From Archaeoglobales archaeon (lineage in GTDB: Archaea > Halobacteriota > Archaeoglobi > Archaeoglobales > Archaeoglobaceae), in assembly GCA_003662985.1 (NCBI GenBank), contig QMZD01000010.1, positions 1 through 14,504 of the forward strand: 14,504 nucleotides of DNA, written 5' to 3'. Numbering within the stretch: the first letter of the stretch is position 1; each line of letters begins with the position of its first letter. Made by a program: the position numbers and the translations under genes. Positions 3,278 to 13,975 of this stretch are shown here, piece after piece. Below the pieces are notes generated by a model. The model searched no databases, had not been told where the DNA came from, and saw nothing but the letters and a program-made list of their open reading frames with translations.

Positions 3278-3829
3278 TTAGGATACTGCCTGCATTTTCC
3301 TCACCGTATGGGCCATTCTGTGGATTGTGGTCAGAATCCCCAAGAAGGCTATAATCGCAAGGGTTGCAAAATACTGCTGAAGAAGTAAGCCGATCATTAT
3401 TATCGCCAACCTCGTGTCCCTGCTGCCTATACCAACCTTACATTCAACGTTATACGCTTCCGCCATCGCCCGTGAGATGCTCACGCCAAAGGAGCCGATT
3501 ATAGCAAGTATCCCGATTGCCCAAAGGTCTGAGGGGTTTAAACCTACGATACCTATGATGATGGCAGCATCAACGAACCTGTCGAAAATTCTGTCCAAAT
3601 ACCCTCCCAAAGCAGTGACTCTGCCAGTCAATCTGGCGAGATCACCGTCTGTACAGTCTAGAATTTGCGAAATGAAGATGATGATGACCCCTTCAAAAAT
3701 TCTCCCATAGTATATAATTAATCCGGCCAAGATTCCGATTGCAGAAGCTATGATAGTGATGAGATTGGGGCTGACATTATATTTTGAGAGAAAACGAGCA
3801 AGAGGCCTAGAAAACCTCCGATAGACCAT
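3278..3829 (-). CDS. CDP-alcohol phosphatidyltransferase family membrane protein
   Basis: 183 residues from the first ATG. The family signature is complete: D58, D61-G62, A65-R66, G75, D79 and D83 (DGX2ARX8GX3DX3D), which binds two metal ions and moves a phospho-alcohol from a CDP-alcohol to an acceptor hydroxyl. The rest is hydrophobic helices, consistent with about six membrane spans. It is divergent from a nucleotidyltransferase whose product could be its CDP-linked substrate. Candidates are di-myo-inositol-phosphate-phosphate synthase or an archaetidyl-inositol-phosphate-type synthase; the sequence alone does not decide. The true start is probably earlier: the in-frame upstream segment DYFLTE resembles the normal N-terminus of relatives, a strong GGAGGTGAT lies at 3868-3860, and no ATG, GTG or TTG follows it in frame, only ATT at 3856 (see findings). 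Confidence 0.85.
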   Translation of the reverse strand: MVYRRFSRPLARFLSKYNVSPNLITIIASAIGILAGLIIYYGRIFEGVIIIFISQILDCTDGDLARLTGRVTALGGYLDRIFDRFVDAAIIIGIVGLNPSDLWAIGILAIIGSFGVSISRAMAEAYNVECKVGIGSRDTRLAIIMIGLLLQQYFATLAIIAFLGILTTIHRMAHTVRKMQAVS

Positions 3830-3909: not shown

Positions 3910-4653
3910 ATGGAGGCTGTTATCCTAGCAGCGGGTTATGGTTCTAGGCTTGGTTACGTCACCGATAATATCCCCAAGTCACTTATCACCATCGGTGGTA
4001 AAACCCTGCTGGATAGGACTTTAAAAATACTCAGAAAAAACAACGTTAGAGATATCGTAATCGTTACCGGATACAGGAGAGATAAAATCCTTGAGCATCT
4101 AAAGGAGAAATACTACCTCAACATAAATTTCGTTCATAATCATGATTACGATACAACAAACAATATTTACAGCCTCTATCTGGCAAAAAAAGCCCTGTCA
4201 GGAGGTGATTTCTACATCATCAATTCCGACGTTCTCTTTCATGAAAGAATCTTTCAGCATCTCCATGCCAGCAGAAAGAAGGGGCTTGTTCTGTCGGTTG
4301 ATACAACGAAGAAGCTAACAGATGAGTCGATGAAGGTTGTTTCAATTGGAGAAAGGCTCATCTGGATAAGCAAGAAGATACCCATCCAAGAAGCTTCAGG
4401 GGAGTACATCGGGCTCGCAAAGGTAACCGAAGAGGAACACGCTAAGCTTTTCAGATCGCTGAAACATGTCATGAAAAATAAAGGTGTTCACGTTTTTTAC
4501 GAGGATGCTTTCCAGCACATGATGGATACGGGCAGCAGCGTTACCTACGAGCCAACAAGGGGTCTTCCATGGATAGAAATCGATACCCTCGAAGATCTAA
4601 GGATAGCAAGAGAAAAAGTATATCCGAGAATAGTGAGGGCTAAATATCAGTAG
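3910..4653 (+). CDS. Sugar/polyol-phosphate nucleotidyltransferase (possible inositol-1-phosphate cytidylyltransferase)
   Basis: 247 residues, cytoplasmic. The N-terminus has the nucleotidyltransferase signature LAAGYGSRLG with K23 following (PKSL), then NNIYSLY near 84-90, IINSDV with metal-binding D107, and the C-terminal element WIEIDTLEDL with D225. This arrangement is that of the LicC/COG1213-like group, which makes CDP-choline or CDP-inositol, rather than that of large dTDP/GDP-sugar enzymes. In Archaeoglobus and other thermophiles, inositol-phosphate cytidylyltransferase and the following CDP-alcohol transferase are often fused or paired; here they are separate and divergent. The substrate is therefore inferred: inositol-1-phosphate is the leading guess, another sugar phosphate is possible. 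Start is the ATG 25 bases after the TATA box. Confidence 0.8.
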   Translation: MEAVILAAGYGSRLGYVTDNIPKSLITIGGKTLLDRTLKILRKNNVRDIVIVTGYRRDKILEHLKEKYYLNINFVHNHDYDTTNNIYSLYLAKKALSGGDFYIINSDVLFHERIFQHLHASRKKGLVLSVDTTKKLTDESMKVVSIGERLIWISKKIPIQEASGEYIGLAKVTEEEHAKLFRSLKHVMKNKGVHVFYEDAFQHMMDTGSSVTYEPTRGLPWIEIDTLEDLRIAREKVYPRIVRAKYQ

Positions 4654-5182: not shown

Positions 5183-5725
5183 CTAATTTTCGATAATGAT
5201 TATTTTCCTATAGTACTCCTTTATCTCTGCATTGAATTCCATTGCCTCAAAAACACCTTTCAAAAACTCCTCAAGGATTCTCTGTTCATTTTTTACAGAC
5301 AAAACAAGGATATAAGTCTTTTTAGAATCCAGTTTTAGTCTGAACCAGTTTTCATGTTCTAAATACCCTAAAACCTCTTCAATTGAATGAAATCCACGTT
5401 TACGAAACTGGATTCCATGTTCGTAGCCAACATTTTTTACAACCTTAAAGAACTCCTCTCTTTTCTTCTCATCTATCATCTCAAGGATCGCTGACCAAAT
5501 CTCGATATCTACTATAACGTGTTCTTCACCAGATAAAAGCTCTGAATATATCAGCGCATCCTCAAACGCCTTTAGATCTCCATTTTTTGACATTCTAGAC
5601 AAAATATTTATGGATCTACGGACAATCTCAGATATTGACTTTTGTTCTCTTTCGACGAGTTCCTCTAGTATACGATAGGTAGAAGGATCGACCGCAACAG
5701 AAAGTCTCCTAGTTTTTAGTGCCAT
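5183..5725 (-). CDS. Ribbon-helix-helix (CopG-like) regulator with a large C-terminal domain, copy 1
   Basis: 180 residues. Residues 6-46 form a ribbon-helix-helix DNA-binding domain: the strand RRLSVAVD, then two helices with the SISEIVRRSI pattern. Residues 57-180 are an unrecognised domain shared with the paralogue at 13442: E67-H-V-I-V-D-I-E-I-W, FRKRGF, YLEHENWFRLKL, LVLSVKNEQ and a basic YRKIIII end. By analogy with NikR-like proteins, the C-terminal part may sense a ligand or set oligomerisation; which ligand is unknown. It lies directly upstream of the DUF22 pseudogene, and its paralogue sits beside the intact DUF22/TSUP cluster, so both may regulate DUF22 genes. The ATG at 5725 is 27 bases after a TATA-like element, giving a leaderless start. 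Confidence 0.8.
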   Translation of the reverse strand: MALKTRRLSVAVDPSTYRILEELVEREQKSISEIVRRSINILSRMSKNGDLKAFEDALIYSELLSGEEHVIVDIEIWSAILEMIDEKKREEFFKVVKNVGYEHGIQFRKRGFHSIEEVLGYLEHENWFRLKLDSKKTYILVLSVKNEQRILEEFLKGVFEAMEFNAEIKEYYRKIIIIEN

Positions 5726-5806: not shown

Positions 5807-6001
5807 TTACCTACTTGGTGAAAACAGAAACAGTAAAATTATCAGGATCAGGAACCCTCCCATCATGAAGATCATAAAATTCCTCTGCTTTTTCCTTTCT
5901 TTCTCAAGAGTTCGCTGGCATTCCTCGCTACATGTTATTTCATCGGGCTCAATCGCTTTACCACAAATGACGCAATGCCTATGAGGAACTATACCCGGCA
6001 A
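5807..6001 (-). CDS. Small zinc-ribbon membrane protein, DUF2116-like
   Basis: 64 residues. The N-terminus has a zinc ribbon made of H9-C10-x2-C13 and C24-x3-C28 (HCVICGK, TCSEECQ), followed by a charged helix (LEKERKKQRN) and a single hydrophobic membrane segment at about residues 43-60, then a short SPSR tail. This layout matches archaeal DUF2116 proteins as I remember them; function unknown, probably a membrane-anchored zinc-finger facing the cytoplasm. The start is a TTG at 6001, chosen because a strong Shine-Dalgarno sequence GGGGGTGAT precedes it by the right distance and no ATG is available nearby. It is the last gene before the miniature transposable element, which inserted just upstream of its promoter. 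Confidence 0.8.
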   Translation of the reverse strand: MPGIVPHRHCVICGKAIEPDEITCSEECQRTLEKERKKQRNFMIFMMGGFLILIILLFLFSPSR

Positions 6002-6055: not shown

Positions 6056-6134
6056 GGCTTTGGGACAAAATTACCCAACCCTGATTGCAAACAGGTTGTG
6101 CTACAGCGATTCATGCTAAGAATTCAACCGAAAA

Positions 6135-6143
6135 GTATTTAAG
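6135..6143 (+). promoter_or_regulatory. Promoter of the DUF2080-like gene inside the element
   Basis: A BRE-like CCGAAAA (6128-6134) is followed by GTATTTAAG, centred 27 bases before the ATG at 6166. The element therefore carries its own archaeal promoter. Confidence 0.5.
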
Positions 6144-6165
6144 TATTTCTATGGATATACTAAAT

Positions 6166-6324
6166 ATGAGGAGGGTTGAGGTGAAGAAAGGTGACTTCGT
6201 GCTGAGAGAAGAGGTGGAGGTTGTTTTTGAGAAGAAAGTCACACCCTTTGGCAATTCAGCTAAAGTTGATGTTCCAAAGAGGTATATCGGGTGGAGAGCT
6301 TATGTAATCGTTGTCAGGGATTAG
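6166..6324 (+). CDS. DUF2080-like transposon-encoded small protein
   Basis: 52 residues from the ATG at 6166. The core FEKKVTPFGNSAKVDVPKRY matches the archaeal DUF2080 family of transposon-encoded proteins (pattern VTxxGNSxKVxVPKxxxG), which looks like an AbrB/SpoVT-type swapped-hairpin DNA-binding fold; this fold assignment is inference. It lies wholly inside the 289-bp element and its stop is only 4 bases from the right inverted repeat. A longer reading frame opens at 6085, but the promoter spacing and the family N-terminus support 6166; the methionine at 6151 is an alternative. It may bind the element's ends or regulate transposition. Confidence 0.75.
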   Translation: MRRVEVKKGDFVLREEVEVVFEKKVTPFGNSAKVDVPKRYIGWRAYVIVVRD

Positions 6325-6371: not shown

Positions 6372-6680
6372 TTACTTAGGGAGATAAATCTTGTCGGAAC
6401 TTATCTTTATATCCTCATGCAACCCATATTTCTCAACAAAGTAATCCCTCTTTTGTGGATCGGTACTTTTCATAGAGTCAAGAACAGCGAAAATAAAATC
6501 CCGGATGCTAGATTGCAATTCTATGAGTATGTACTTCTCTTTCTCCTTGGGGTTCTTCATACCTATGTAATCAGCATATTCCTCTATGAAGTCGATCCAT
6601 CTTTTAGGAACATAAACCTTAATCCAACAACCTATTTCACCCGAAGGGAGTTGTTCACATTTAATTTTATTTATATCCAT
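6372..6680 (-). CDS. Hypothetical protein, 102 residues, possibly ribbon-helix-helix-like
   Basis: Not recognised. The sequence is hydrophilic and gene-like. A strand IKVYVPK is followed by a helix (RWIDFIEEYADYIG) and a second helix (YILIELQSSIRDFIFAVL), an order reminiscent of a ribbon-helix-helix DNA-binding protein, then a charged tail ending in KIYLPK. The reading frame is open from an ATG at 6701, but I prefer the ATG at 6680, because a Shine-Dalgarno-like GGGGTGGTGGGG directly precedes it and a TATA box at 6725-6731 predicts a transcript start near 6702. That would make the odd MKKGWWG segment the ribosome binding site rather than protein. It follows the 62-residue gene on the same strand after a 170-base AT-rich gap. 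Confidence 0.6.
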   Translation of the reverse strand: MDINKIKCEQLPSGEIGCWIKVYVPKRWIDFIEEYADYIGMKNPKEKEKYILIELQSSIRDFIFAVLDSMKSTDPQKRDYFVEKYGLHEDIKISSDKIYLPK

Positions 6681-6724
6681 ACCCCACCACCCCTTTTTCA
6701 TAATTTTTATCCTTTTTTACAACA

Positions 6725-6850: not shown

Positions 6851-7039
6851 CTAGATAGTATTTGAATTAAGATATGTACCAGGCTCTCTAAGATACTTTT
6901 TCTCTAAATGCTCAATGGATGTTTTATCAATAGGTGCAAAAAGATCCCCCGTAGTTGGTGGATCAATAAATTCTGCAAGAGAGTCAAAGTCGATTAACCT
7001 TCTGATCATATCTACAATATCACTAAATTTTAATATCAA
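6851..7039 (-). CDS. Small hypothetical protein, 62 residues
   Basis: Not recognised. It starts with a TTG at 7039, supported by a strong Shine-Dalgarno sequence AGGGGGTGA (7054-7046) six bases ahead, the same arrangement as in the zinc-ribbon gene at 6001. The sequence is acidic and helical: KFSDIVDMIRRLIDFDSL, then a proline-rich DPPTTGDLFAPIDKT turn, then IEHLEKKYLREPG. No membrane segment. It diverges from the single-DUF22 gene at 7167 and shares a 127-base promoter region with it. The motif-free sequence allows no function call; a small regulatory or antitoxin-like partner is only a thought. Confidence 0.6.
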   Translation of the reverse strand: MILKFSDIVDMIRRLIDFDSLAEFIDPPTTGDLFAPIDKTSIEHLEKKYLREPGTYLNSNTI

Positions 7040-7166: not shown

Positions 7167-7649
7167 ATGTCCTCTAAAAAAATCGAGGTCGTATATTGGA
7201 AAGACAGAATAAAGGGTAAAGTAGAAAGGAAGATTATTGAGATCGAACCTTTCGGATTTCAGCTAAGCTCAATTGCTGAGTGGAAAATGCTCATATCTTC
7301 CAAAGAGACCGAAGTGAGAGAGAATGAAATAAGCATAATCAATGTTGAGGAAATAAAACTTCCAAAAAACGCTGTAATCTCCATTCTCCCAGTAATGAGA
7401 CATGCTTTAGGTGTAATACTTGATATTTACAGCCCAAACGGTATAAAGAAAATAGAGGAGGAAAGAACAATAACCCAAGCCGTTTTCCTTCCAGTTTCCA
7501 GTGGAAAGATTAAAAAAGGTGAATTAATCGGGGTTATAAACGTCCAGTACGTCAAAACCAGTACCCTAAGTAAAATATCCGAAATGCTCTCCAAATGGGC
7601 TGAGAGTGCGAAATGGGTAGAAGATGTTGGCGGGATAAGACTTGACTAA
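7167..7649 (+). CDS. DUF22-domain protein (single domain)
   Basis: 160 residues, soluble, no signal peptide. One DUF22 domain covers about residues 6-128: the N-terminal strand VVYWKD, the EPFG turn, EWKMLISS, then LPKNAV at 65-70, VMRHALG at 76-82, VFLPVSSG at 106-113 and KKGELIGVINV at 116-126. A helical tail (about 131-150) follows. As I recall, Pfam DUF22 is archaeal, occurs in one to three copies per protein and has no known function. The repeated GELIGV/GDLIGV turns and short strands suggest an all-beta barrel. It converges on the membrane gene at 7702 and is transcribed opposite to the other intact DUF22 genes. Three other DUF22 loci (two intact, one decayed) lie in this window, so this is an expanded local family. 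Confidence 0.85.
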   Translation: MSSKKIEVVYWKDRIKGKVERKIIEIEPFGFQLSSIAEWKMLISSKETEVRENEISIINVEEIKLPKNAVISILPVMRHALGVILDIYSPNGIKKIEEERTITQAVFLPVSSGKIKKGELIGVINVQYVKTSTLSKISEMLSKWAESAKWVEDVGGIRLD

Positions 7650-7656
7650 TTTTTTT
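7650..7656 (+). terminator. T-run after the single-DUF22 gene
   Basis: Seven T residues immediately follow the stop codon. The rest of the 52-base convergent gap to 7702 is A/T only in long stretches and T-rich on the minus strand as well, so it may end both transcripts. Confidence 0.45.
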
Positions 7657-7701
7657 GATAACTAAAAATTAAATAAATTTTAAAATTTTAGTGAATTTTT
7701 A

Positions 7702-8151
7702 TCAATGCCCAGCATGAATGATTCCCAGAGCACTTGCCGTCAAGATTAAAGCCACGACAAAAGCAAATACCACAAAGAAGTATTCTCTATCTCTGAAAAG
7801 CGCAAACGTTGAACCCCAGACACCAAAGACTGCAGCCATGCATGCCAGAGCAATTCCCAGCATTGCGATTCCATCACCGGTATTCAACTTACCTAAATAC
7901 CAATGTCCCTTGGGATTAGTTCCTGCACACTTCTCCCAGATTGCCGAGGGGTTATCTCCACCCCACAACCCATTCAGCAAACAGGTTGAGTCTATGTAAT
8001 TCGCATTTGTGGTTAGGATCATAGAGACCCCGATTATAGAGAGTACTGTACCAGTTAGAACAATCCAGTAAGCAATCTCACCATAAACAACTCCAGATAA
8101 CGGGGGTTTTGGTCTGAACTCGGGCCCAAACTTACCCTTAATTTCTTGCAT
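7702..8151 (-). CDS. Small membrane protein downstream of a TSUP transporter (DUF1634-like)
   Basis: 149 residues from the ATG at 8151, chosen because GAAGGTGGT lies five bases ahead; a GTG at 8160 would add three residues. Three hydrophobic segments at about 24-46, 94-117 and 124-145. Between the first and second is a 45-residue polar loop with two cysteines (C57, C75) and several W/G residues, probably outside the membrane and possibly disulfide-linked. The cytoplasmic N-terminus is rich in K/R and P. The start lies 12 bases after the transporter stop, so the two are translated from one mRNA. Small membrane proteins of the DUF1634 type often accompany TauE/SafE (COG0730) transporters; the resemblance is in position and topology, and family membership is not certain. 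It may be an accessory subunit. Confidence 0.7.
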   Translation of the reverse strand: MQEIKGKFGPEFRPKPPLSGVVYGEIAYWIVLTGTVLSIIGVSMILTTNANYIDSTCLLNGLWGGDNPSAIWEKCAGTNPKGHWYLGKLNTGDGIAMLGIALACMAAVFGVWGSTFALFRDREYFFVVFAFVVALILTASALGIIHAGH

Positions 8152-8163
8152 TATTACCACCTT

Positions 8164-9180
8164 CTAGATATAACCCAGCATTGTAAGCGACTGCTGAACC
8201 AGTCTTAATCCAGAGATAACCATAATTCCAATAATTAGATACCTTACAAAGCCTGCCTTCACCCTAATCATTATCTTAGCCCCGATTATCGTCCCGACTA
8301 TCAACCCTATCATACAGGGAACTGCAAAAAGAGGGAATATCGTGCCCTGCATTACATAAGGCCAGATTGCGGCGGTATCTCCAATCCCAATGAGAACTTT
8401 GCTGCTCGCCGCTGCAACCTTTAAAGGCGCCATCATAACAAGATTTAGCACTGGCACCATCGCCCAACCTGCACCAAGCCCAAAAAGACCGGATATCAAA
8501 CCCACACCAGAGAAAAGGATTAAGCCAAGCCAAGATCTCGTTACCTGATATTGCACAACTGAGCCTAGAGATTCCTCCCAATATGACATGGCAAGGCCAA
8601 CCCTTTGTGTAAACCTATCGACTTTTCTTATTTCGGGATACTCTATTCTACCACCTGCAAAAATAAATAACATTGCAATTAGAATCACCAAACTACCGAG
8701 CGAGAGTCTCACAAAAGCTTCACCAGTTACCCCCATAGTCTGTTTGATGTAAACGGCAAGCAGTGCACCAGTCACAGCAGACGCTGAATAGGGAACCGCT
8801 GCGAAATAGAGTAATCTTATGTTTGCTAGTCCTCTCCTCAAAAAAGGTCTGGCTGCAACAAGTGCTCCTGCCATTGCAACAAACAAACCAGTTCCCCTAA
8901 TTATCAACCCATCGATAGGTGTAAAACCCATCATTAAAGGGGTGAAAATAACACCCCCTCCCACTCCAGCTAGAACCGCCACAATCCCAATAAAGATACT
9001 GATTACCAGAAAAAGTATAAAGAATTCAACTGGGGAGAGGCCCATACTGCTCGGAGATTCCTCTGCAGCAACTGTTCCCGAAAGTCCTGTGATGATGAGA
9101 AGAACTAAACCTAGCAAAGATATTTTGCTCCGATAAGAATTACATAATGCTTTAGATAATCTAGAGAGATAAGATTTCAA
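8164..9180 (-). CDS. TauE/SafE (TSUP) family transporter 1
   Basis: 338 residues from a TTG at 9180; GTG codons at 9189 and 9186 are alternatives, but they lie inside the GGGTGGTGG ribosome site and the TATA box predicts a start near 9191, so the TTG fits best. About nine membrane helices. The two internal family repeats are visible (numbered from the GTG at 9189): GVGGGVIFTPLM at 75-86 and GLGAGWAMVPVLN at 237-249, the latter followed by a small-residue helix (KVAAASSKVLIG). A hydrophobic N-terminal segment ending in TVAAEES could be a signal peptide or extra helix. TSUP members export sulfite, sulfoacetate, taurine-derived or other anions, or import sulfate; the substrate cannot be read from the sequence. 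It is followed by the three-helix membrane gene, and lies in the same direction as the DUF22 genes upstream. Confidence 0.88.
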   Translation of the reverse strand: MKSYLSRLSKALCNSYRSKISLLGLVLLIITGLSGTVAAEESPSSMGLSPVEFFILFLVISIFIGIVAVLAGVGGGVIFTPLMMGFTPIDGLIIRGTGLFVAMAGALVAARPFLRRGLANIRLLYFAAVPYSASAVTGALLAVYIKQTMGVTGEAFVRLSLGSLVILIAMLFIFAGGRIEYPEIRKVDRFTQRVGLAMSYWEESLGSVVQYQVTRSWLGLILFSGVGLISGLFGLGAGWAMVPVLNLVMMAPLKVAAASSKVLIGIGDTAAIWPYVMQGTIFPLFAVPCMIGLIVGTIIGAKIMIRVKAGFVRYLIIGIMVISGLRLVQQSLTMLGYI

Positions 9181-9189
9181 TACCACCAC

Positions 9190-9369
9190 CCTATATGTTC
9201 TATATTAGTCTCACTATATAAGCGTTATGAATTTAAACTACAGTTGATTAAATTTTAATACTAAAGAAGCAGAGTGCAACATTTCAACGAAAAAGGTTCA
9301 TGATAAATCATTAAGGTACGTACCACTAGAACTAATTTAGAATGGAAATTTGGTAATATATTGGTTAAA
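9190..9369. other. AT-rich gap with two short palindromes
   Basis: No reading frame worth calling. It contains ATGAT-AA-ATCAT (9300-9311) and the perfect 10-base palindrome GGTACGTACC (9315-9324), both upstream of the promoter of TSUP transporter 1 and downstream of the small gene ending at 9370. Either could be an operator or part of a 3' end structure; nothing shows which. Confidence 0.3.
9215..9221 (-). promoter_or_regulatory. TATA box of TSUP transporter 1
   Basis: The minus strand reads TTATATA, predicting a transcript start near 9191 and a leader of roughly ten bases that carries GGGTGGTGG before the TTG at 9180. The transporter and the small membrane gene therefore have their own promoter within the cluster. 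Confidence 0.55.
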
Positions 9370-9513
9370 TCAATTTTTCTTCCATAGGTATGGCCAATCC
9401 GATTTGATGAATACTTCAGGATCTATTGAAATTACATTGTCTATTTTTTTTAATATTCTCACGATCATTTTGAAAGTAGAGTGATTCGTAAGTTTATACT
9501 TGTACTCAAGCAT
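9370..9513 (-). CDS. Small protein (47 residues) sharing the C-terminal tail of the neighbouring DUF22 protein
   Basis: Reads from an ATG at 9513, preceded by GGTGGT at a suitable distance, to a TGA at 9370. The first 29 residues (MLEYKYKLTN, then FKMIVRILKKIDN) are helical and basic; the last 18, SIDPEVFIKSDWPYLWKK, repeat the tail of the DUF22 protein encoded just upstream (9662-10159). The DNA of this tail is identical for 52 bases. The part before it (VRILKKIDNVI) also loosely resembles the linker VEKLQEFDRTV of the DUF22 protein. It is either a truncated DUF22 copy that kept only the tail, or a genuine small partner using the same docking segment. It has an open frame and ribosome site, so it may be expressed. 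Confidence 0.5.
   Translation of the reverse strand: MLEYKYKLTNHSTFKMIVRILKKIDNVISIDPEVFIKSDWPYLWKKN
9378..9429. repeat. 52-bp direct repeat, copy 1
   Basis: Identical over 52 bases to 9673-9724, 295 bases away and in the same orientation. It encodes the shared tail DPEVFIKSDWPYLWK on the minus strand. Flanking DNA is not identical. Confidence 0.9.
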
Positions 9514-9661
9514 TCAACCACCATCTAATGTTATGTGTACTTATTATATTAATGTTGTTATGATAATTTAGTTTATTGTACTAACTTAAAACTCACAATA
9601 GCAAAGAGTAGTGGATGATATGACATAAGTCAAAAATTGATTAAAGAGTAACATTTAAACG
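9514..9661. other. AT-rich gap between the single-DUF22 gene and the 47-codon gene
   Basis: No gene seen. On the minus strand a TATA-like AATATAATAAG near 9545-9555 could drive the small gene ending at 9370. A short stretch, TATGACATAAGTCA, near 9618-9631 contains a loose inverted repeat. Confidence 0.25.
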
Positions 9662-10159
9662 TCAGTCTCTTCTCTTCCATAGGTATGGCCAATCCGATTT
9701 GATGAATACTTCAGGATCTATTGAGACCGTCCTATCGAATTCCTGAAGTTTTTCGACGAGAACAGACTTGGGTTTTTCAACCATTATTCTAACACATCCG
9801 ACACCTAGAAGTTCTCCCCTCCTAATACTACCATTTTCAACAGGAAGAAAGACGACATGACTTATCTTTTGAGGGGACTCAAGTCTTTTAAATTTCCCTT
9901 CTTCGACGACAGCGATTAAAAAACCCAGTGCATGTCTGAATCTATCGAGAAGAGATAGTATTCCATTTCCAGGGATGTGTATTTCTCTTATTTTAACAAT
10001 TTTTACGGAATTTGCTTCAACTTCAACATCCTCATCACAAATAATTGGCTCAAAATAAGCCCCCGGACCTATGAAGTAACCATACTCTCCAACTTCAATT
10101 TCTTCCACTTTATAGGAATTGTCATGTATTCTATCTCTGTAGGTTATTTTAACTTTCAT
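9662..10159 (-). CDS. DUF22-domain protein (single domain) with a distinct acidic/aromatic tail
   Basis: 165 residues, soluble. DUF22 domain at about 2-124: ITYRDR, EYGYFIG, a divergent centre IPGNGILSLL, then FRHALGFLIAVV at 74-85, VVFLPVENG at 102-110 and RRGELLGVGCV at 113-123. The tail at 146-163, SIDPEVFIKSDWPYLWKR, is unusual for the family here and is repeated in the small protein at 9370-9513; the triple-DUF22 protein ends with a similar short EPDWPF. The ATG at 10159 is 25 bases after a TATA box, so the start is leaderless. It lies between the triple-DUF22 gene and the second transporter on the same strand. Confidence 0.82.
   Translation of the reverse strand: MKVKITYRDRIHDNSYKVEEIEVGEYGYFIGPGAYFEPIICDEDVEVEANSVKIVKIREIHIPGNGILSLLDRFRHALGFLIAVVEEGKFKRLESPQKISHVVFLPVENGSIRRGELLGVGCVRIMVEKPKSVLVEKLQEFDRTVSIDPEVFIKSDWPYLWKRRD
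9673..9724. repeat. 52-bp direct repeat, copy 2
   Basis: Identical to 9378-9429. It lies within the 3' end of the single-DUF22 gene and encodes its tail. Confidence 0.9.
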
Positions 10160-10179
10160 AAGCTTAAGTTAACAACATA

Positions 10180-10187
10180 CTATAAAA
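10180..10187 (-). promoter_or_regulatory. TATA box of the single-DUF22 gene at 9662-10159
   Basis: On the minus strand TTTTATAG is centred 25 bases before the ATG at 10159. The gene therefore has its own promoter even though the triple-DUF22 gene ends only 59 bases upstream. Confidence 0.5.
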
Positions 10188-10218
10188 TTCTCACCTTTTT
10201 AAAGATATAAGAAGAGAG

Positions 10219-11535
10219 TCAAAATGGCCAGTCGGGTTCCCCAAGTCTCTCTCCCATCTCATCGAGCCAGCTGTCCAACCACCCTCTCACTTTGGCAAAT
10301 GTTCCAATCTCAATTGGATACATGCTGATGACTCCGAGAAGTTGATTTTCCCTTATCTCACCATTCATAATTGGTAGGAAAAGTATCCTGTCAATCACTC
10401 TATCCTCCTCAATTTTCTTCGGGGGGCCTTCAGGTACTAGATCGATAAATGTTCCATAGGCATACCTCATAATATTCAGAGGGTAGGTGACAGTATTTTT
10501 TGGGATTTTTATGGTTTTTATCCTGACTATACATGGTTCTCCGGATTTCACTTTCTTATTTTCATTGGCAATCAACACCTCCCAAGAGGCTAAGAGAGAT
10601 CTCCTATAGCCGAAAGGTTCGACTTTTACCTCCTCCTTTACGATTCCCTTCCCACTCCTGTAAACTACGTTGACTTTCTCCGTTTCCATTTCTTTTAAAA
10701 CCGCACTTAGGTTGCTGTTCCCAACATAAAAAACATTCAGTACACCGATCAAATCACCTTTTTCCACAATCCCGTCATCAATGGGAAGAAAAATTGCCTG
10801 ATTTATCACCTTCTCCTCTTCAACCCTCCTAGGTTTACCCAACTGAATAACGTCAATCACCGAACCACGGGCATTCTTCATTATCGCAAGGGGTACTACC
10901 ACTGTATTAGGAGGTAGGTTCACGTTTTTTACTTTGATTCTCACGATTTCCCCCTTTCTGATTTCCACGTTCTCATCCGCTACAAGAGTTCTCCACACAC
11001 CTACAGAGGTGCTCGTATAGCCCAGAACTTTGGTTTTTATTTGCTCTCTATGGACATTTCCGTTATCCCTCCAAGTTAAGTTTGCCTCAAGAGTTTCTTC
11101 TTTTAACTCAACTTCGGGTATGCTGATGCTCATCAATCTCCTGGGCAATCCTGTTCTAAGAAAGATTACTTTCAAAACACCAATTAGATCCCCTTTCTTC
11201 ACTTCACCGCTTTCGACTGGAATAAAAAGGACTTGATCTATGCATTTCTCATCCTCAACCCTTGTGGGAATCCCACACTCAACCACATCCACAACGGTAC
11301 CAAGGGCATGCCTCATGATGTGGAGGGGTCCAACCATTGTGTTCTTGGGAGTCTTAACCGTTTTCACTTTAATTACGGTAGGCTTACCTTTTTTAACGTG
11401 AACATCCTCATCGGCAACCAAGGTTTTCCACTGCGTTATTGGGCCCATCCTATACCCAAAGGGTTTCAATTCTATCCGGAACGTTTTTACTCTCCCTCCT
11501 ACGTGATCTACCCAGTATACCATGCTGGCTTCCAT
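10219..11535 (-). CDS. Protein with three tandem DUF22 domains
   Basis: 438 residues from the ATG at 11535; an in-frame TTG at 11556 would add seven. The ATG is preferred because AGGTGAT lies three bases ahead (seven from the GGAGG position) and the TATA box predicts a transcript start near 11545, after the TTG. Three domains at about 5-128, 148-271 and 287-409. Each has the pattern PKNT or PPNT, then PL-IM-(R/K), then G-VVDV, then EE/ED-(K/R)-ID or IN, FLPI/V, G-(V/I)-KGDLIGVL. MRHALG occurs intact in domain 1 only; domain 2 has MKNARG and domain 3 MRYAYG, and the KGDLIGV turn becomes ENQLLGV in domain 3, so the copies have diverged. No signal peptide or membrane segment. The tail ends in LGEPDWPF. 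Triple DUF22 proteins are a known arrangement of this family; role unknown. Lies just downstream of TSUP transporter 2. Confidence 0.87.
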   Translation of the reverse strand: MEASMVYWVDHVGGRVKTFRIELKPFGYRMGPITQWKTLVADEDVHVKKGKPTVIKVKTVKTPKNTMVGPLHIMRHALGTVVDVVECGIPTRVEDEKCIDQVLFIPVESGEVKKGDLIGVLKVIFLRTGLPRRLMSISIPEVELKEETLEANLTWRDNGNVHREQIKTKVLGYTSTSVGVWRTLVADENVEIRKGEIVRIKVKNVNLPPNTVVVPLAIMKNARGSVIDVIQLGKPRRVEEEKVINQAIFLPIDDGIVEKGDLIGVLNVFYVGNSNLSAVLKEMETEKVNVVYRSGKGIVKEEVKVEPFGYRRSLLASWEVLIANENKKVKSGEPCIVRIKTIKIPKNTVTYPLNIMRYAYGTFIDLVPEGPPKKIEEDRVIDRILFLPIMNGEIRENQLLGVISMYPIEIGTFAKVRGWLDSWLDEMGERLGEPDWPF

Positions 11536-11565
11536 CCCATCACCTAGATATTTCAATGATTAACT

Positions 11566-11574
11566 ATTATAAAT
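11566..11574 (-). promoter_or_regulatory. TATA box and ribosome site of the triple-DUF22 gene
   Basis: The minus strand reads ATTTATAAT, predicting transcription from about 11545, immediately followed by AGGTGAT (11545-11539) and the ATG at 11535. The very short leader decides the start in favour of the ATG. Confidence 0.5.
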
Positions 11575-11620
11575 ATTTTCCTTCAGATTTCGCTATCGAA
11601 AATTAGATTATCAACAAATT

Positions 11621-11644
11621 TAAATAAAATAAAATAAAAATAAG
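11621..11644 (-). terminator. T-rich tract after TSUP transporter 2
   Basis: The minus strand carries CTTATTTTTATTTTATTTTA 20 bases after the transporter stop, a typical archaeal terminator. It separates the transporter from the triple-DUF22 gene, which has its own TATA box, so the genes form a directional cluster rather than one obligatory operon. Confidence 0.5.
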
Positions 11645-11661
11645 TTCTTGGAATCTATGAA

Positions 11662-13089
11662 CTACTCTGAGGCAGAGGTGCTTCTTACACTTGCAGCCCA
11701 AGTTTTAATACCTTCATAGCCTTCTTGGCTTATCTTTTTGGCGAGATCGTCCTTTAACGCAGTAACGTTCACGAAATCGAGGAAGTTGTGTGCGAAGCTT
11801 CCATGGACAATTGACCAATAGATTGCCGCTCCAATAACTCCAAGTGCAAGTGCGATAGACATTATTGGACTTGCATGTGGTATGGTTGTGACAAACTGAG
11901 GCCACCAGTTAGGATCTCTGAAAAGCAGGTAGTAGTTTATGCCCGTGAGGATCCCAAATACTATCATCCTCTTAACGAGTGCTGATTTTTTGTGTTCCGC
12001 TGCTGTAACTGCCTTTTCAAGCAACCCCATATTCTTGAGCTCTTTCCTAACGTTGAAGATGGGGACGAGAACGATCGGAGTAACTGACACCATTGCGAAG
12101 ACCATTATCGGGAATACCAGGGAATCGAACAAATTGACCAGCCCTTCATCCAGAGTTATCCATCCAAGTTGCACCAGATAACCCGGAACCGCGAGAGCTC
12201 TGCTGACAGTAACGATAAGCATAACAACGGCCATTGCAAGTTTTATGTAATACTGCCTAACGTAAGTCGTTCCGACAGCCCCGATTTGAACACCAATCAA
12301 CGAGGCCGCAAGAATCAGAGTTGTCAGCCTGAAATCAACCGCACCCATCAAATATGCCCAAGTAAATGTTCCTGTCGCACCCATTACGAAGGCTATCCCA
12401 AGTTCAGTTCCACTTGCAACAGCGCTTGATGCGCCGAGTACATAGATCATGGATGGAACACCGATAAAACCGCCAACCGCTATTGTGGCAGCAAGGAAAC
12501 CCGTTGCAAATCCAGTCGGTACGGTTAGCCAGAGAGACTGAGTTCTTCCTGCAACCTCAAACTTGATCATTGGAGGTAACCTGAATTTCTTTTCAAGCTT
12601 CTTTGCAAATTCAGGTTCAGTATCCTCAATACCATATTTTCTCGATTTGTATACATCCCTTAAAAGCATGGCAGCCACACTTGGGAGAATTATGAGAAAA
12701 GCGATACTCACATAGAGATTCGTACCGACTGGCCCAAGAGTTTCTAAAATTACTTTTTGAACCTGAATCCCCACCTGTACACCCGCAATAGCTGAAATAG
12801 CCATGAGAATTGCCAATTTAACGTCTAAATGCCCAACCTTTTTCCTTCTCCACGCTCCAATCATAGCTTTCGGAAACTTATGACACATGTTACTGGCAAC
12901 AGCGATGGGTCCGTAAACACCTATCGACATCATCCCGGGCGTGAGGACGAAGGCTCCACCGCTTCCGATGAAGCCGCTGAGCATCCCCCCGAAGAATCCC
13001 AGAGCCAGCAGGAAAATTATCTCATTGACACCGATATGAATGAACATATCCGGTGTCATCGCTGCCCCACCTGCAGCAAAACCCCCCAT
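11662..13089 (-). CDS. TauE/SafE (TSUP) family transporter 2, long form
   Basis: 475 residues, longer than the usual 250-350. Family repeats: GSGGAFVLTPGMM at 42-54 followed by SNMCHKFPKAMIGAWRRKKV, and AVGGFIGVPSMIYVLGA at 204-220 followed by SAVASGTEL. The extra length comes from a charged cytoplasmic loop at about 144-177 (DVYKSRKYGIEDTEPE and following) and a C-terminal extension with two or more extra helices and an NWWP motif. The start ATG at 13089 has GGAGGTGG at the right distance. This long form with the conserved CHKFPKA segment resembles permeases found in sulfate-reducing bacteria and Archaeoglobus that are suspected of moving sulfate, sulfite or a related anion; substrate not proven. 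It is the first gene of the minus-strand cluster and diverges from the RHH regulator at 13442. Confidence 0.88.
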   Translation of the reverse strand: MGGFAAGGAAMTPDMFIHIGVNEIIFLLALGFFGGMLSGFIGSGGAFVLTPGMMSIGVYGPIAVASNMCHKFPKAMIGAWRRKKVGHLDVKLAILMAISAIAGVQVGIQVQKVILETLGPVGTNLYVSIAFLIILPSVAAMLLRDVYKSRKYGIEDTEPEFAKKLEKKFRLPPMIKFEVAGRTQSLWLTVPTGFATGFLAATIAVGGFIGVPSMIYVLGASSAVASGTELGIAFVMGATGTFTWAYLMGAVDFRLTTLILAASLIGVQIGAVGTTYVRQYYIKLAMAVVMLIVTVSRALAVPGYLVQLGWITLDEGLVNLFDSLVFPIMVFAMVSVTPIVLVPIFNVRKELKNMGLLEKAVTAAEHKKSALVKRMIVFGILTGINYYLLFRDPNWWPQFVTTIPHASPIMSIALALGVIGAAIYWSIVHGSFAHNFLDFVNVTALKDDLAKKISQEGYEGIKTWAASVRSTSASE

Positions 13090-13441
13090 TCATTACCACC
13101 TCCTTTCGGTCACCAAAAGAGAAAAGAAGGACTTCTTGGGTCCATTTACACCTTTTGTGTTACTAAATCTCTCTAATCTTACAGGATTATTCATTACTAT
13201 TTCATAACAGGTTTCAATTATTTTTTCAAATACCATACCCTATACCAACTTTAACTGGAAATAAATGTTTTTGTGTAAGATTATTTTTGATTAACTAGTA
13301 AGCTTAATGTAACCTACAAATCATGTGCTCTTAATACATATTAATAAATATTAATTTTCAGTAGTGGATTAAACCAACATAGCATAATAACTAATATTAT
13401 TTAACAATAAAGTTTATTAATTATACATAATACCATTACAT
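13090..13441. promoter_or_regulatory. Divergent control region between TSUP transporter 2 and the RHH regulator
   Basis: 352 bases, very AT-rich near the regulator, no gene. The transporter side begins with GGAGGTGG at its ribosome site; I could not pick a clear TATA box for it, so its leader may be more than 50 bases. The regulator side has TTTATTAA (13413-13420) about 26 bases before the ATG. A palindrome, ATTAATA-AA-TATTAAT (13340-13355), lies upstream of the regulator, with a further TTAATA at 13331, and is the best operator candidate in the gap. Confidence 0.45.
13340..13355. promoter_or_regulatory. Palindrome upstream of the RHH gene, possible operator
   Basis: Perfect 7-base arms ATTAATA/TATTAAT around AA, preceded by a third TTAATA copy at 13331-13336. 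RHH dimers bind such short repeated half-sites. The low complexity of the region means chance is a real alternative. Confidence 0.3.
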
Positions 13442-13975
13442 ATGGCCGGAAAGCTAAGGAGACTGTCCGTCGCCATGGATGAAGAGACAAACAAAATACT
13501 TGAAGAACTCGTACACAAAGAAAACAGAACTGCATCTGAGATCATAAGACATGCCATTAACCAGTACTACCATTTCAGAGACATCTCACCTGAGTCAATC
13601 AAAATTTATTCAGAATTACTATACGGTAGGGAATACATAATCCTCGATATTGAACTCTGGATTGCCATGCTCGATGAGCTCAACGAGAAAGCTTCCGATA
13701 GATTCTGGGAGAACGTCAGGAGGTTGGCTGAAGCTCACTCATGGCAGATAAGGAACAAGGGCTTCAAAGATTTGGTTGAGGTGATGAGATACCTCGAATA
13801 TGAAAATCTTTTCAGAGTTAAATTGAATGGTGATAAAAACGTGACACTCGTCCTATCATCAAGAAATGAACAGAAATTCCTTAAAATATATCTTGAATCC
13901 CTTCTCGACAATCTTGGATATCGCGTAAAGATTATTGAAGGATTGCGAAAGATAATGATTACAGAAGAAGATTAG
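13442..13975 (+). CDS. Ribbon-helix-helix (CopG-like) regulator with a large C-terminal domain, copy 2
   Basis: 177 residues, paralogue of the protein at 5183-5725. The RHH domain is at 5-44 (KLRRLSVAMD, helix NKILEELV, then TASEIIRHAIN). The C-terminal domain from about 54 shares the same landmarks: YSELLYGREYIILDIELW, QIRNKGF, YLEYENLFRVKL, LVLSSRNEQKFL, and a basic end LRKIMI. Differences lie mostly in the helix joining the domains, which is shorter here. Position, divergent from the TSUP/DUF22 cluster, suggests it controls that cluster and itself. Leaderless ATG after a TATA-like TTTATTAA. What the C-terminal domain senses is unknown; a sulfur anion or metal would fit the context. Confidence 0.82.
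   Translation: MAGKLRRLSVAMDEETNKILEELVHKENRTASEIIRHAINQYYHFRDISPESIKIYSELLYGREYIILDIELWIAMLDELNEKASDRFWENVRRLAEAHSWQIRNKGFKDLVEVMRYLEYENLFRVKLNGDKNVTLVLSSRNEQKFLKIYLESLLDNLGYRVKIIEGLRKIMITEED

Follow-up and report, generated by a model that had tools for sequence, protein, structure and literature searches.

What do DUF22 proteins do, and why do their genes keep company with TauE/SafE (TSUP) transporters in the Archaeoglobaceae? The question is raised by contig QMZD01000010.1 of an Archaeoglobales archaeon (contig C10 of an incomplete genome of 2.15 Mb, assembly GCA_003662985.1), the whole of which, 14,504 bp, was analysed and is referred to here as the window. An initial annotation had pointed to a candidate undescribed system at 7167-13975, with three intact DUF22 genes (one of them triple), two TauE transporters, a small membrane partner and a divergent ribbon-helix-helix (RHH) regulator; Pfam bears out each of these genes, the small membrane partner being a DUF1634 protein, and gives no function for DUF22, as had also been noted. 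The gene set recurs in related genomes and its members lie together well above chance. The explanation that we favour, tentatively and with a little less than even confidence, is that the window cluster and its relatives form an anion-transport module, conserved in the Archaeoglobaceae and controlled by a one-component regulator, with DUF22 as a soluble, non-catalytic partner.

Clustering of DUF22, TauE and regulator genes

Of 392 genomes drawn from the phylum, 142 contain DUF22, and neighbourhoods were analysed in all 37 Archaeoglobaceae that have it (of 55 searched) and in 49 (47 for TauE) of the 105 other DUF22 genomes. In the Archaeoglobaceae, TauE lies within 3 kb of 34 of the 102 DUF22 genes (18 genomes) and of 29 of the 91 regulators (16 genomes), against 2.1 and 1.6 expected, and a regulator lies within 3 kb of 22 of the 102 DUF22 genes against 1.15 expected. 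The expected values are for genes placed uniformly and disregard contig breaks, and the genomes, being related, are not independent trials. When neighbouring DUF22 genes are merged, 26 of the 91 resulting loci are near TauE (1.96 expected). The clustering of DUF22, TauE and regulator genes in this family is not due to chance. Hits of the same kind closer than 50 to 600 nt, the limit depending on family and script, were counted as one gene; left out of the counts were two regulator fragments, 8, 10 and 2 TauE rows (the 10 all on contigs other than that of the genome's DUF22 gene), the last universal stress protein (USP) rows, mostly second gene pieces, and, from the comparison with TauE, the DUF22 rows of the outside genomes G045 and G273.

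Lack of a preference of DUF22 for TSUP or RHH neighbours, along with lack of a joint response, had been named beforehand as what would refute a link to transport. The preference proves strong within the Archaeoglobaceae and missing outside: none of 57 DUF22 genes from elsewhere has TauE within 10 kb, despite 84 counted TauE hits in the 47 genomes, and thus DUF22 is not a general TSUP partner. Within the family, TauE, RHH and USP genes are all missing within 3 kb of 54 of 109 DUF22 genes, a count that includes fragments, and the two results together indicate that the TSUP partnership belongs to some paralogues only. The idea of a soluble partner of anion exporters fits those paralogues, and fails as a description of DUF22 as a family.

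The clustering might also mean little for function. Lineage-specific duplication could have spread DUF22, TSUP, USP and RHH paralogues as one block, with no functional tie between DUF22 and transport. On a tree of DUF22 domains the TauE-near labels are clustered, with 24 changes against a mean of 64 and a minimum of 56 in 50 shuffles, which limits the number of independent joinings, and decayed copies exist, both as such an account would have it; yet 24 label changes still represent many joinings or losses, and membership of the set is kept though gene order varies. We regard mere neighbourhood as improbable.

Gene content and extent of the cluster

The features of the window that belong to the cluster or adjoin it are given below, with Pfam scores in bits against the family cut-off.

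13442..13975, + strand: RHH regulator 1 (RHH_1, 31.2 against 20.5), divergent from the transporter operon
13090..13441: intergenic region between TauB and regulator 1, candidate TauB promoter/operator (MAFFT alignment of five genomes)
11662..13089, - strand: TauB, long TauE/TSUP transporter, 475 aa (PF01925, 121 against 32.6)
10219..11556, - strand: DUF22 triple-domain protein, 445 aa (PF01629, three matches, 391 against 25)
9662..10159, - strand: DUF22 single-domain protein, 165 aa (PF01629, 103 against 25)
9370..9513, - strand: short frame, 47 aa, probable fragment (55 bp direct repeat and translation)
8164..9189, - strand: TauA, short TauE/TSUP transporter, 341 aa (PF01925, 115 against 32.6)
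7702..8160, - strand: DUF1634 small membrane protein, 3 nt from TauA (PF07843, 28.1 against 27.5, marginal)
7167..7649, + strand: DUF22 single-domain protein, 160 aa, convergent to the operon (PF01629, 117 against 25)
6851..7039, - strand: small conserved protein, 62 aa, family c105, also in loci L107, L129 and L148
6372..6701, - strand: small conserved protein, 109 aa, resembling family c111, without a Pfam match
5807..6001, - strand: DUF2116 treble-clef protein, 64 aa (PF09889, 80.6 bits), which adjoins the second regulator in L078 also
5183..5725, - strand: RHH regulator 2, paralogue of regulator 1 (RHH_1, 29.6 against 20.5), its position kept in L078, L090, L107 and L129
4751..5161, - strand: decayed DUF22 gene (PF01629, 41.6 against 25, positions 1-88 of 106 only), its coding split between frames

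The named relatives found in a DUF22-based search are mostly Archaeoglobus and other Archaeoglobi genomes, and a regulator 83% identical to that of the window carries the name of A. sulfaticallidus. The window gene set recurs in L129; it is present in L078 and L090 but with the triple missing between TauB and the single-domain DUF22 gene, is split into two pieces in A. sulfaticallidus (L107 and L108), and is seen partly, as far as the contig ends, in L142 and L150. DUF1634 is found in some relatives' modules and USP in many. The regulator is divergently upstream of the long TauE in 12 of the 28 regulator copies in the examined loci, these being 11 flagged by script and the window copy, where a spurious frame of 55 residues intervened.

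The start and some gene calls of the initial annotation require revision. The start at 7167 is too late and the conserved unit extends to about 5183, as the regulator there, the DUF2116 gene and the genes at 6372-6701 and 6851-7039 recur in some relatives; proteins of 101-105 aa similar to the 6372-6701 product, matched by eye, occupy the equivalent place in L078, L090, L107 and L129. The second regulator does lie beside a decayed DUF22 gene, as described, but is a paralogue 44% identical to the first rather than a copy of it; the decay of that fourth DUF22 gene is borne out by its partial PF01629 match and by coding that we read as split between frames. A small gene said to share its tail with a neighbour does share it, but is most likely a fragment produced by duplication: a direct repeat of 55 bp (9375-9429 and 9670-9724, 98% identical) repeats the last codons of the 9662-10159 gene within the 47-residue frame.

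Members of the set decay in places elsewhere, with a broken DUF22 gene in A. fulgidus (G117:C1:111879-113065, locus L101) and, no more than 3 kb from DUF22, a broken TauE at G127:C10:192101-192827. Within the conserved cluster of the window, 6085-6324 encodes a DUF2080 'putative transposon-encoded' protein, a hint of past insertion.

DUF22 in other genomic contexts

Forty loci outside the Archaeoglobaceae were fetched, with a DUF22 frame called in 34 and uncalled in six, and all 36 called genes are single-domain. In 13 of the 40, DUF22 adjoins a gene for a Zn-ribbon-like protein of about 168 residues (a match below the Pfam cut-off), with FpoA then present in 7 of the 13; in 6 of the 40 the gene for subunit D of the A-type ATP synthase is on the same strand and overlaps it or is 4-10 nt away. 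Near the Archaeoglobaceae DUF22 genes without TauE, RHH or USP neighbours are, among others, genes for AOR, an aminotransferase, CcmE/CcmF and an HdrD-like protein, as well as Nuo and further Hdr genes; the Nuo, Hdr (except HdrD-like), Pcc1-like and kinase-like names used here were all given by eye.

The subunit D pairing is seen in L196, L198, L199, L201, L203 and L204 (families f12, f14, f21 and f34). DUF22, Zn-ribbon-like and fpo genes run in one direction in L171-L175, L178 and L207 (f5), and the DUF22/Zn-ribbon-like pair occurs without FpoA nearby in L170, f31 and f36. DUF22 also lies by TldD/PmbA peptidase genes and LonB in L076, L089, L127 and L152 of the Archaeoglobaceae and in L182 and L189 (f9). 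Further contexts are ribosomal protein S8e and a gene pair read as Pcc1-like and kinase-like.

These neighbours support the strongest rival to our explanation, namely that DUF22 is an accessory factor for the assembly, stability or energy-state regulation of archaeal membrane ion-translocating complexes, and that the TSUP link is a single late recruitment of its expanded paralogues in the Archaeoglobaceae. The single-domain state of all the called outside genes, the ATP synthase and Zn-ribbon-like (FpoA) pairings, and the CcmE/CcmF, Hdr and Nuo neighbours within the family are all consistent with it. Other conserved contexts, however, are not membrane complexes (LonB with TldD/PmbA, S8e, aminotransferase, the Pcc1-like/kinase-like pair), and the genes could simply be old neighbours. 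We consider it a minority possibility, although one that can be joined with a role in transport, as described below.

Predicted fold and assembly of DUF22

The DUF22 protein encoded at 7167-7649 gave an AF2 model with a pLDDT of 87.6, and 48 of the 50 Foldseek matches listed for it are dUTPases; among the 50 VIA rows listed, 49 are dUTPases and the remaining one is a dCTP deaminase. On the strength of this model DUF22 is predicted to have a dUTPase-like fold. By sequence, 93 DUF22 relatives touch 18 Pfam families at E values up to 0.5, and dUTPase is not one of these; a search of PDB sequences with the triple-domain protein found no match at E up to 1, and NCBIfam has no family for any of the three DUF22 genes. 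Alignment of DUF22 with archaeal dUTPase and dCTP deaminase by hhalign is locally roughly colinear but not significant (local P of 0.025 and 0.039, probability below 2%; global P of 0.37), the best of 21 unrelated controls giving a P of 0.097.

DUF22 differs from the dUTPase/dCTP deaminase superfamily in that catalytic motifs 1, 3 and 4 are missing from nearly all of the 93 sequences, being found in 0, 3 and 4 of them respectively; in a positive set of 30 dUTPase/DCD proteins the same patterns are found in 27, 30 and 29. A short motif-2 pattern occurs in 12 of the 93. The patterns used are those that we take to define these motifs. The initial annotation had suggested as an alternative that DUF22 catalyses a reaction of the exported sulfur compound, and nothing beyond the neighbourhood speaks for this; the dUTPase motifs are missing, although another active site is possible, and the remaining contexts, which concern energy conservation and housekeeping, are too diverse for a single sulfur reaction. 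We think such an enzyme very unlikely.

There are 62 internal triples among the DUF22 genes; singles number 37, some of which are pieces of broken genes, and of the 8 doubles two are at contig edges and six in genes that look broken. Unbroken DUF22 genes carry either one domain or three, as a putative trimer or fused pseudo-trimer would.

USP genes as a third partner

When genes up to four positions away from DUF22 in the Archaeoglobaceae are clustered, USP is the largest single family (26 loci), TauE being split in two in that clustering (20 and 14 loci). USP lies within 3 kb of 16 of 48 DUF22 genes in 11 genomes (1.1 expected) and of 19 of 64 TauE genes in 9 of the 11 (1.5 expected). USPs bind ATP. 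Small soluble proteins of this kind act on transporters elsewhere: TeaD is cited as a regulator of the ectoine transporter TeaABC (PMC3673472), and the USP Rv2623 is described as interacting with the ABC transporter Rv1747 (PMC5549992). In many Archaeoglobaceae USP similarly adjoins DUF22 and TSUP genes. DUF22 itself is different, as its predicted structure is all-beta and it gave no USP match; the window cluster is without a USP gene, none being found among the 17 window proteins scanned with Pfam.

A broader proposal joins the membrane-complex and transport roles: DUF22 proteins would be non-catalytic trimers of dUTPase fold that sense the energy state of the cell, through a nucleotide or a ligand related to one, and adjust the activity of archaeal membrane ion-moving machines, with one domain per gene beside ATP synthase subunit D and F420H2-dehydrogenase genes in methanogens and related archaea, and with three-domain pseudo-trimers recruited, together with RHH sensors and USP, to TSUP transporters in the Archaeoglobaceae. 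In this full form we rate it as quite improbable.

The RHH regulator and the TauB upstream region

Regulator 1 has an N-terminal RHH and a sensor-like C-terminal domain of about 120 residues, and an RHH_1 match is found in 27 of the 29 members of its family. The C-terminal half of the modelled protein matches structures of Bet3, H-NOX and DmpR, and it thus resembles, as far as the model goes, TRAPP/H-NOX/DmpR sensors. Among the best 25 of 43 Pfam families for the 29 regulator members, at E up to 0.5, V4R is absent, and the window protein has no V4R match; a PDB sequence search returned two weak matches (E of 0.19 and 0.57), and NCBIfam only a sub-threshold match to aCcr1 (17.1 against 60 bits). 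The likeness to DmpR-type V4R/TRAPP/H-NOX-like one-component regulators concerns the C-terminal half, whereas the DNA-binding part of the window regulator is an RHH; DmpR is of the sigma-54 build. Such RHH-plus-sensor regulators are found in 140 of the 392 genomes of the phylum, mostly with one or two copies per genome outside the Archaeoglobaceae.

The pairing of an RHH protein with DUF22 was also considered as a type II toxin-antitoxin system, and this was set aside on account of the large sensor-like domain of the regulator and because DUF22 mostly occurs without the regulator.

Upstream of TauB, the block AATAAATGTTTTTGTG (13260-13275) is kept with few changes across the five aligned genomes. 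A second conserved stretch in the intergenic region lies nearer to the TauB start codon. Block and stretch could be an operator or leader element; the block can be read as BRE/TATA on the minus strand, and the intergenic region is a candidate TauB promoter/operator.

Expression and transporter background

Whether the genes respond together can be approached through a published array. In it, 'permeases (AF0121m, AF0123-AF0124)' and the USP AF1526 are up in A. fulgidus grown on H2/CO2 with thiosulfate relative to lactate (Hocking et al., 2014; PMC3949148). We place these permeases in a cluster at 109.3-117.5 kb of genome G117, which contains a triple-domain DUF22 gene, a frame that by eye is transposase-like, a second DUF22 gene that is broken, TauE, USP, TauE and RHH. 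G117 is taken as A. fulgidus because its Sir2 and SepRS proteins match PDB chains 1ma3 and 2du3 from end to end, chains that we assume to be from that species. By a crude hydropathy count the two TauE/TSUP proteins are the only multi-span proteins in its 98-120 kb region, and when frames are numbered from base 1 the first TauE comes out as gene 107 to 136, according to the minimum length applied. AF0110 and AF0112 are presumably SepRS and Sir2-Af2, names that a literature search did not find, and this is consistent with AF0121-AF0124 lying in the cluster. The paper names three permease genes against the two TSUPs counted in the cluster (PMC3949148). That the cluster genes respond together is thus supported only indirectly.

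TauA and TauB both match PF01925 far over its cut-off and so resemble TSUP transporters in general. TSUP genes are abundant in sulfate reducers, and the row for A. fulgidus VC-16 in a published survey gives 11, in a column that we take as TSUP/CysZ (PMC5840216). Another TauE homologue, AF1562, is the proposed sulfite import carrier of A. fulgidus and is reported as constitutive (PMC3949148); it differs from the window module in that the available part of that text mentions no DUF22 partner, and we take it to be another locus. An open-literature search did not find TauE or TSUP together with DUF1634.

A possible mode of action

In the module that we favour, an RHH dimer would sit on the intergenic region between TauB and the regulator, and binding of a small ligand by the TRAPP/V4R/H-NOX-like C-terminal domain would release or retune it. 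The operon would then yield the two TSUP transporters, the DUF1634 protein and DUF22. The DUF22 proteins, with a dUTPase-like fold but without the dUTPase motifs, would form trimers from single-domain genes or fused pseudo-trimers from triple genes, bind a small ligand, perhaps a nucleotide, and modulate the transporters as USP proteins do some transporters; it is as such a soluble, non-catalytic regulatory partner that we infer DUF22 to function. The substrates of the TSUP proteins are likely to be sulfite, thiosulfate or some other sulfur oxyanion that takes part in sulfur respiration.

Other genes of the window

Divergent genes at 3278-3829 (- strand) and 3910-4653 (+ strand) encode a CDP-alcohol phosphatidyltransferase and a nucleotidyltransferase; the pair resembles what we take to be the di-myo-inositol-phosphate enzyme in two separate halves, which are joined in some Archaeoglobus. 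Scanning the window against Rfam and for tRNA genes gave no matches.

Significance

A transporter with its own sensor is a known kind of thing, here made of new parts. In a whole-word search of the open literature, most subscription papers being outside its scope, PF01629 was absent and DUF22 appeared in a single paper, on plant OSCA genes; the DUF22 fold, the rule of one or three domains and the ATP synthase and Fpo partners were not found in print under either term.

In summary, the family gains a predicted fold, an assembly hypothesis that is testable on one purified protein, and two conserved sets of partners, namely TSUP, USP and RHH in the Archaeoglobaceae and ATP synthase and Fpo genes elsewhere. 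For sulfate-reducing archaea, the analysis names a conserved candidate module, with a sensor of its own, for the movement of toxic sulfite and thiosulfate and for the regulation of that movement.

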